Shown: positions 46,886-49,216 of the stretch, in pieces | Position numbering within the stretch: position 1 is the stretch's first letter | Layout: every line of letters begins with the position of its first letter | DNA from: Oscillospiraceae bacterium | Lineage (GTDB): Bacteria; Bacillota; Clostridia; Oscillospirales; Ruminococcaceae | DNA length: 64,000 bases | Assembly: GCA_009777725.1 (NCBI GenBank) | Contig: WRLG01000007.1 | Location: 43,071 to 107,070, forward strand | Reading direction: 5' to 3' | Translations under genes and position numbers: made by a program | Notes under the pieces: generated by a model | What the model was told of the DNA's origin: nothing | The model's input: the letters and a program-made list of their open reading frames with translations, nothing else | Databases searched by the model: none

Positions 46886-47071
46886 TTGACATTCCCGCCA
46901 AAATATGTTATAATAAAAATACAAAAAATTAACAAGAAAGGTCTTGACTTAAATGCCCAGACATGCTACAATTTTAGCAAGCAAGCGGGTAACTTCGCTC
47001 TTTCGGCGTGTCTTAAAATTTATGTAAATATATGGCAACTGCCCCCTGTTTAGGAGGTAGTTGCTTTTTTT
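46886..47071 (+). ncRNA. RNA-like unit, copy 1: tandem promoters, hairpin and terminator
   Basis: Two consensus promoters lie in tandem (TTGACA 46886-46891 with TATAAT 46909-46914; TTGACT 46944-46949 with TACAAT 46967-46972, both spaced 17). They are followed by an AGCGG/TCGCT hairpin and a terminator with stem GCAACTGCC/GGTAGTTGC and seven T (47034-47071). A GAAAGG site and ATG at 46953 would allow a 24-codon ORF, which does not stay in frame with that of copy 2. I therefore favour a non-coding RNA. Confidence 0.55.
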
Positions 47072-47099
47072 GTGTTAAGGATTTACACGAAGGGGTTCG

Positions 47100-47309
47100 T
47101 TAACCTAAATTATCCCAATCAATGTCATCGTCGTCAATATAATCGCCGTTTTCCGCTTCTTCGAGCGCGGCTCTTTCAAAAGCGGTAAGCTTGGTGTAGT
47201 CGGGGTCCCAAGCCAAAACAAGCCTTTTAATAAATTCAAAAGCAAAGTTCTGCTCATCTTCGGGAAGCATTTCTACCATATTCGCAATTTGCATTGTTTT
47301 CGTTGACAT
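47100..47309 (-). CDS. 69-aa antitoxin-like protein
   Basis: The start is ATG 47309 after a perfect AAGGAGG; the longer track ORF reads through upstream sequence. The protein begins with a helical NMVEMLPEDEQNFAFEFIKRLV segment and ends in a very acidic DYIDDDDIDWDNL tail, the layout of small type II antitoxins, but no toxin gene is beside it. An in-frame upstream stretch from 47399 (KVKYEKKAVKGIIHNE) may be a remnant. It lies between two copies of the RNA-like unit. Confidence 0.7.
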   Translation of the reverse strand: MSTKTMQIANMVEMLPEDEQNFAFEFIKRLVLAWDPDYTKLTAFERAALEEAENGDYIDDDDIDWDNLG

Positions 47310-47439
47310 AACTAATCCTCCTTGTAAATATCGCCGCGAGAGCCGATATTCATTATGAATAATGCCTTTAACAGCTTTCTTTTCATATTTTACTTTCATA
47401 GGTCGCTCCAAAGCTCTGCCCCCTTTCCCTATAACTATA

Positions 47440-47468
47440 ATTATACCCCCTACCCCCCATTTTGTCAA
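47440..47468 (-). promoter_or_regulatory. Promoter of the antitoxin-like gene, G-rich spacer
   Basis: Minus-strand TTGACA (47468-47463), a 17-base spacer consisting mostly of G, TATAAT (47445-47440). The spacer resembles those of the polC-cassette promoters at 15.97 and 16.88 kb. Confidence 0.8.
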
Positions 47469-47507
47469 CATAAAAAACAACAAACAATTAACACTTTCCC
47501 AAAAACC

Positions 47508-47703
47508 TTGACACCCCCGCCCAAAATATGCTATAATAAAAACACAAAAAATTAACAAGAAAGGTCTTGACAAAAATGCCAAAATATGCTACAATTTTAG
47601 CAAGCAAGCAAGCGGGTAACTCCGCTTTTTTGGCGTGGTTTAAATTTTATATAAATAAATGGGCAACTACTTTCTGCTTTAAGCAGAGGGTAGTTGCCTT
47701 TTT
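47508..47703 (+). ncRNA. RNA-like unit, copy 2
   Basis: Aligns over its length with 46886-47071. Promoters are TTGACA 47508-47513/TATAAT 47532-47537 (18 bp) and TTGACA 47567-47572/TACAAT 47590-47595 (17 bp). The AGCGG/CCGCT hairpin and the terminator stem GGCAACTAC/GTAGTTGCC are kept by paired changes relative to copy 1. A 54-codon ORF starts at 47576 (MPKYATILASK) but runs through the terminator. Confidence 0.55.
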
Positions 47704-47706
47704 GTG

Positions 47707-47872
47707 TGCGGGACGGGCAAGCCCGTCCCCTACAGAATAAAATGGTGGCAAATTTTTTCGTAGGGGCGACCGCCCCGGTCGCCCGAATACACCGCCCTCG
47801 GTCGCCCGAATAACGCTGTTATTTATTCTTTTGCCTGCTCTTTCGGGCGAACGAGGCGTTCGCCCCTACAAA
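47707..47872. repeat. Cluster of GTAGGGGCG-type palindromes
   Basis: Contains GGGACGGGCAAGCCCGTCCC with CTAC, then GTAGGGGCGACCGCCCCGGTCGCCC, a second partial unit, and TTCGGGCGAACGAGGCG ending in CGCCCCTAC. One portion is nearly the same as at 63.80 kb. No gene fits here. Confidence 0.75.
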
Positions 47873-47905
47873 GTATTTTAAAAATAAAAAAACGGAGGAT
47901 TTACC

Positions 47906-49216
47906 ATGTTAAAAACCAAGAAAACAACCCGCAAATCCCGCATTATCCCTATCCTAACCGCCCTGGCAATCTTCATCTCAATCTTCACCGCGCTGAATAT
48001 TTCAGCGCAAACCTTTTACTATGAAACATCAGGCAACGGCTGGCATGTTGGTTGCGTTGTATATGAAGATGACGAGGGTGAATTCGTTGCTGCTGTCTAT
48101 ACACTCACAGTTTCTTCAGATGTCGGTGTGGCATTTTCTCAAGAAGCCGGTATGGCAAATTGGCGGGCAGAGCTAAGCGGTTGGACTACACCCAGATACA
48201 TAACAGAGGTTATAATCGAAAACACTGTTACGACAATAGGCGATGCGGCGTTTTTAGACATAGGTGCAGCTACCATAGAAATACCCGATAGTGTTGTGTT
48301 TATAGGAGGCGGCAGAACATTTAACAGCGATTTCTTAACCGCAATAAATGTTGACCCGAACAACAGCCATTATTCAAGCCTTAATGGTGTGTTATTTAGT
48401 AAAGACGGAACAGAGTTGAGAACATACCCGGAAGGAAAGGCAGAAGCAAGCTATACCGTCCCCAATGGTGTTACGAGCATATACAACCAAGCATTTGCAT
48501 CGGCAAAAAATCTAACCTCAATTGTTATTTCGCAAAGCGTGGAGTTTATAGACTTCGCCGCATTTGCAAATTGCGTTAGCTTAAACTCTATAACATTCAC
48601 CTCACGAACCCCGCCGACATTCAACGAGTGGGCATTCTCCGGTGCTCCCCCCGCATTGACAATACACGTCCCACACGGTGCAAAGGCGGCATATGCGGCA
48701 ATTGAGGGGTTGAGCAACTTCACTATACATGAACTTCCCGCCCCTGCTATCCGAGATAATGACGATGATAACAATAACAACCGCGGCGGAAGCTCCGTAA
48801 GAGATACAATCATCAGCGGCGGCGGAATCGGCGGCGCGGCAGGGAGCATAAACAGCAGCGGCAACTCCGAAATCAACGGTCATTTTGAAAATGACACCTA
48901 CATAAAACACGCTGAAACCCCGCTGGTTTACACAGCAGACAAAAATTATGCAGACTTCAGAGAAGTCCGCATAAACGGTCGCCGACTGACAAAGGGTACA
49001 CATTACACCGTCAAAAGCGGCTCGACAATCATTACCCTCCTGCCCGAATATCTGGACGCACTTGAAGCAGGAGAGCATGAATTAAGCGTTCATTTCAGCG
49101 GGCTTGCAGTGGTTAAGGCTTCGTTTATCGTTGAAAACGCCGAACATGACGATGTTTCGACTTTGGCGGGGATTTTGGAGGATTTTGATTCAATAAGCTT
49201 TCCCCCAAAGAACTAA
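47906..49216 (+). CDS. Secreted leucine-rich-repeat (LRR_5/BspA-like) protein
   Basis: Signal peptide ([22 protein letters not shown]), then BspA-like LRR_5 units ([54 protein letters not shown]), a low-complexity Asp/Asn and Gly/Ser linker, and a C-terminal module with [21 protein letters not shown] and [18 protein letters not shown], which looks like an X2-type Ig module. Likely a surface adhesin or binding protein. GGAGG lies before the ATG; the 3' end overlaps the convergent proS by 27 bp. Confidence 0.85.

Follow-up and report, generated by a model that had tools for sequence, protein, structure and literature searches.

Repeat-containing leaders as predicted phase-variable attenuators of surface-protein genes in an Oscillospiraceae genome

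We analyzed a 64,000-nucleotide stretch of an Oscillospiraceae genome (contig WRLG01000007.1, positions 43,071 to 107,070; hereafter the window) and found two homologous direct repeats, at 46886-47073 and 47508-47703 and 623 bp apart, that belong to a genome-wide family of such units. Judged on sequence, these units are probably 5' leaders that act as phase-variable transcription attenuators of surface genes. The second copy probably serves in cis as the leader of the gene starting at 47906; action as a free small RNA is less likely. The anatomy of the units, their copy number, their linkage to genes, the positions of their stop codons and the differences in repeat number between sister copies were all read directly from the DNA.

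Each unit comprises, in order, a promoter (P1), a ribosome-binding site, an ATG, a promoter-like site (P2) over the start of the open reading frame (ORF), an AAGC repeat, a small hairpin and a strong terminator. The features of the region are as follows.

46886-46914, plus strand: copy 1 promoter P1 (TTGACA-17-TATAAT, extended -10), 12/12 consensus, common to the family
46934-46941, plus strand: copy 1 ribosome-binding site AAGAAAGG, from sequence, kept in every intact copy
46944-46972, plus strand: copy 1 promoter-like P2, overlapping the leader start, 10/12 consensus
46953-47027, plus strand: copy 1 leader ORF, 24 aa, stop 6 nt 5' of the terminator stem
46979-46986, plus strand: copy 1 AAGC repeat, 2 units
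46983-47000, plus strand: copy 1 short hairpin after the repeat, from folding and alignment counts
47034-47072, plus strand: copy 1 intrinsic terminator, -19.4 kcal/mol, z -5.1 against shuffles
47100-47309, minus strand: convergent 69-aa ORF between the copies, no family match
47440-47468, minus strand: promoter-like site for the 69-aa ORF, 12/12 consensus
47508-47537, plus strand: copy 2 promoter P1 (TTGACA-18-TATAAT), 12/12 consensus
47557-47564, plus strand: copy 2 ribosome-binding site AAGAAAGG, from sequence
47567-47595, plus strand: copy 2 promoter-like P2, 11/12 consensus
47576-47740, plus strand: copy 2 leader ORF, 54 aa, crosses the terminator, predicted ON
47602-47613, plus strand: copy 2 AAGC repeat, 3 units
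47610-47627, plus strand: copy 2 short hairpin, from folding and alignment counts
47661-47703, plus strand: copy 2 intrinsic terminator, -29 kcal/mol, z -7.9 against shuffles, also found by terminator scan
47906-49216, plus strand: secreted BspA-type LRR_5 and CBM_X2 protein behind copy 2, 436 aa, by Pfam

The two copies are 92% identical across 89 nt and 87% identical across 60 nt. The tandem promoters, short hairpin and terminator that a first-pass annotation had described in both copies were borne out by the folding and by a consensus scan, in which 7 promoter-like sites were observed against 2.3 expected. The leader ORFs (ATG 46953 and ATG 47576) have their first 11 codon positions in common (MPRHATILASK and MPKYATILASK), past which copy 2 equals copy 1 with one AAGC unit added and the frame is shifted. 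The annotation had seen these common codons and the 4-base CAAG difference behind them, which corresponds to one repeat unit, and had taken the shift as favouring RNA function. That reading is partly supported: the copies are units of RNA-level control and the frame difference is central to them, but the frame shift is no argument against translation, being one unit of a tetranucleotide repeat within the leader ORF. An imperfect inverted repeat with 38-nt arms (82%) occupies 47750-47879, after the terminator of copy 2 and ahead of the surface gene; similar GTAGGGGCG palindromes lie 3' of other copies and also occur in the relative G427.

We infer transcription, translation, slippage and read-through of the leaders and propose the following mechanism. 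RNA started at P1 would include the ribosome-binding site and, after it, a short leader ORF in which the (AAGC)n tract lies close to the start, and the gain or loss of one AAGC unit would place ribosomes leaving the tract in another frame. In one frame, with a far stop, the ribosome would halt about 40 nt before the terminator, leaving the stem free to fold and the surface gene OFF. A ribosome in either of the remaining frames would reach the base of the stem before stopping, or pass through it; the terminator could then not fold, and transcription would go on into the gene (ON). The module would have been dispersed to about two dozen sites, mostly before secreted proteins sharing a C-terminal CBM_X2. 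In a fused form, where the module is joined straight to the protein, the frame alone would set ON or OFF.

Such a mechanism is already known, from one species in the literature searched. In Streptococcus gallolyticus, GCAGA repeats in the leader ORFs of pil1 and pil3 set where the ribosome stops relative to a premature terminator: a stop 39-49 nt before the terminator gives low pilus and a stop at or within it gives high pilus, a model supported by mutating the leader start, the stops and the terminator (Danne et al. 2014, PMC3894217). The units described here resemble pil1/pil3 in having a promoter, a leader ORF with a short tandem repeat, a premature intrinsic terminator and surface genes behind, and in having one frame with a stop far ahead of the terminator and the others with stops at or in the hairpin. 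A promoter and ribosome-binding site precede the short leader ORF here and in relatives, the repeat unit inside that ORF is not divisible by 3, and in copy 2 an intrinsic terminator separates the leader from the surface gene. They differ from pil1/pil3 in the repeat unit (AAGC, 4 nt, against GCAGA, 5 nt), in number (about two dozen copies in one genome against two loci), in their targets (LRR/CBM_X2 secreted proteins against pili), and in having a fused form and a second promoter-like site inside the leader; the sequences are unrelated. The tetranucleotide contingency loci of Haemophilus influenzae are also similar: there, the reading frame of a surface-related gene is changed by a 4-nt repeat close to its start codon, a form that the fused copies match (PMC2651432), whereas most copies here would act through a separate leader ORF and terminator rather than the gene's own frame. 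As in trp-type attenuators of amino-acid operons, leader translation would decide whether an intrinsic terminator forms, but the variable here is repeat length rather than charged tRNA, and neither control codons nor a competing antiterminator were found in the units. As far as we found, the tetranucleotide version, its spread over about two dozen positions of a single genome, the existence of a fused form and the occurrence in several families are apparently new; no genome-wide set of such switches was found in the literature searched.

From the S. gallolyticus design we derived a rule, fixed first and then applied to newly fetched loci, by which the stem lies at least 28 nt beyond the stop of one frame, and the stops of the other two fall no more than 10 nt before it, inside it or past it. 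Terminator stems were marked by eye ahead of the stop-position count. In both window copies, the three frames stop 41 nt before the terminator, 6 nt before it, and inside or past it. The rule held at 15 of 17 loci, against 4.6 expected from dinucleotide shuffles, with a nominal P of 2e-7 that overstates the case because the loci share ancestry. In the fitting loci, the far frame stops 29-59 nt before the terminator and the other two stop within 6 nt of it, inside it or past it. All ten new loci from genus g16 fit and are counted within the 15; an eighteenth locus, L137 (the eleventh new one), fits as well. Subtype B' (L009:2237, L011:2844, L020) and G054 do not follow the rule. In an ancestry-corrected test with 8 coarse clusters, in which all members had to fit and the value for L137 was assumed rather than computed, P was 0.009; this result depends on the cut-off, as clustering at a looser one gave a non-significant test with no power. 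A conserved peptide in the terminator-crossing frame (NSA-x-L-x-C-L-K between subtypes) was dropped as evidence because homologous DNA makes neighbouring frames align equally well. Likewise dropped was a conserved pairing, present in G253 and G037 and absent elsewhere, between CTTGACA and a TGTCAAG sequence downstream of it.

A search of the window's own genome returned 45 matches, about 24 of them whole or half units and the remainder P1 only. Because several copies sit at contig ends, the true copy number is 22-24. The common plan is a promoter, a ribosome-binding site, an ATG and (AAGC)n, with n=2-20, followed by either a terminated short leader or a secreted-protein fusion. The genome holds 140 overlapping (AAGC)4 words, against 0 for the reversed control, and all are explained by the 14 arrays of at least 4 units, every one of which falls inside a unit. 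In kind A, seen at 7 places or more, the tract is fused directly to a secreted protein that no longer has a start codon of its own, while in kinds B (the window type) and C a leader of ~48 nt comes next, then a terminator, and in most cases a gene that retains a separate start. Arrays of 13-20 units lie on contigs C4, C5, C8, C10, C12, C15 and C22. With one assembly per species, repeat number was compared between sister copies. Fused sister copies have n = 3, 15 and 18 with 101-103 of 110 positions identical in their 3' flanks, which indicates that array length changes faster than the flanks. Over 9 aligned copies, pairing holds for 95.7% of the terminator cells, and in two of the pairs both partners are exchanged (A-U/G-C and C-G/U-A). 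The compensating terminator changes reported earlier from the window thus hold in the wider family, but they are modest, and the number of two-sided changes does not exceed the shuffle control.

These copies could also be a selfish or neutral module of promoter and microsatellite that spreads by recombination and brings promoters before genes without any switching. The many copies, the contigs broken at them, the modular 5' flanks and the short and truncated versions are in keeping with this, but the stop-position rule, the retention of terminators with covariation and the preference for secreted-protein genes in other genera too make it quite improbable. P1 alone (TTGACACCCCCGCxCAAAxATGCTATAAT) recurs ~15 times, for example at L010:3269, L010:4145, L011:3947, L014:3181, L023, L024 and L027, often ahead of Rpn-like PD-(D/E)XK nuclease-transposase genes that immediately precede full units. 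At L009:1223-1327 (minus strand), a unit without a repeat tract has a promoter region that is followed directly by an 81-aa ORF and the gene for a PIN-domain toxin.

Under phase-variable attenuation, the assembly yields a predicted state for each readable copy. For the LRR/CBM_X2 gene behind copy 2, the prediction is ON. By the stop rule, C8 (L021) would also be ON, L014, L015, L016 and L012 OFF, and L020 intermediate, while the relatives would include 8 ON, 2 OFF and 1 intermediate. Switching is probably rare for the window arrays, which have only 2-3 units, and copy 2 may thus be fixed in the ON state. Arrays of 4-20 units at sister loci point to frame shifting as the likely purpose. The frame can be read in seven fused copies (L010, L011:4992, L014:4153, L015:3805, L018, L019 and L022); all seven share one frame, closed by TAG before the tract, and each is thus predicted OFF in the assembly. 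Random, independent phases would give a single shared frame with a chance of ~1 in 700; the pattern may reflect selection, chance or decay.

We then considered the genes adjoining the units. Of 17 CBM_X2 genes in the genome, 14 are preceded by a unit (kind A, B or C); the remainder comprise 2 cut by contig ends and 1 without a unit. Copy 1 has its terminator and no gene downstream on its strand, making it an orphan leader. Five B copies, including copy 1, end against a convergent gene (a small ORF, PIN toxin or PD-(D/E)XK nuclease) and control nothing visible. Other copies adjoin PIN, PemK or PD-(D/E)XK genes, or none. That PIN and PemK toxins and PD-(D/E)XK nuclease genes adjoin several copies would suit a role in toxin-antitoxin regulation, with the units serving the genes that lie between them. 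Such a role is extremely improbable, however, as the neighbours either converge on the unit or carry promoters of their own, and what follows most copies is a surface gene instead.

The first-pass annotation had also placed an antitoxin-like gene without a toxin between the window copies. The 69-aa ORF is indeed present on the minus strand, and no toxin ORF adjoins it, but the antitoxin identity is unproven because the ORF has no Pfam or NCBIfam match. It is incidental to copy 2. Directly upstream of it, at 47310-47443 on the minus strand, is a short frame starting MKVKYEKKAVKGIIHNEYRLSRRYLQGG, perhaps all that is left of a toxin gene or other partner that has been lost.

The same architecture was found in other relatives, both within the family (G253, G424, G427, G429, G431, G445, G465, G475 and G578) and in other families of the order (G037, G225 and G054). 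The leaders have diverged in sequence, including those from other genera and families. Their distribution is patchy: leader or array DNA matched in 13 of 71 genomes of genus g16, and a family-wide search with the array pattern matched 3 of 199 genomes, one of which (G541) proved on inspection to be something else. Both CBM_X2 genes and AAGC arrays are absent from the sister species G001, and among viral contigs 15 matches to the start-region pattern included 0 with a repeat. The genes downstream of leaders in relatives mostly begin with signal peptides, with one TetR-type regulator (by eye); in G037 and G253, CBM_X2 genes lie on the leader's contig, on its downstream side. The repeat unit was replaced by CACAG in G445 (L111:1-100) and by GCCA in G253:C37 (L118) with the architecture kept, suggesting that the unit turns over while the leader persists.

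The relatives also bear on whether the units encode a free small RNA, in keeping with the RNA function that the earlier annotation favoured. On this reading, P2 would start, at the repeat, a trans-acting terminated RNA of ~100 nt, and the ORF would be accidental. P2 matches 10-11 of 12 consensus positions in the window and is near-perfect in part of genus g16, terminator pairs covary modestly, L013 retains a merged promoter with the leader start lost, and several copies have no gene behind them. But the -10 of P2 is poor in several relatives that still keep the start codon and ribosome-binding site, the repeat unit itself varies between loci, linkage to secreted-protein genes is strong, and Rfam gave no match at the gathering score (covariance models at gathering and loose thresholds returned only chance-level matches at the units). 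At G253:C9, the P2 -10 is lost while the codons read T-L-V-A-S, against T-I-L-A-S elsewhere, which favours a leader ORF. We therefore consider a free small RNA unlikely. P2 may nevertheless be a real promoter, giving a short terminated RNA whatever the phase.

We tentatively extend the attenuator reading beyond this genome. A portable cassette of promoter, leader start and slippery AAGC tract may have spread through the genome, placing a surface-protein family under independent, random on/off control by attenuation or direct frame switching, and the same type of attenuator, with differing repeat units, may be common and overlooked across this Clostridia-like order. If so, repeat-tuned attenuation of surface proteins would be a recurrent device in another order rather than a peculiarity of Streptococcus, and more than 10 genes would be switched in a single genome, with up to 2^n surface combinations. 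The three stop positions relative to the terminator would then provide a sequence rule for finding switches in any genome, and each gene's ON or OFF state would be predictable from the assembly. At one further leader, L106 (G431:C11), 20 AAGC units lie ahead of a frame starting MVFPSFVFLQFFLPALIILYYVVF, which by eye resembles an MBOAT O-acyltransferase.
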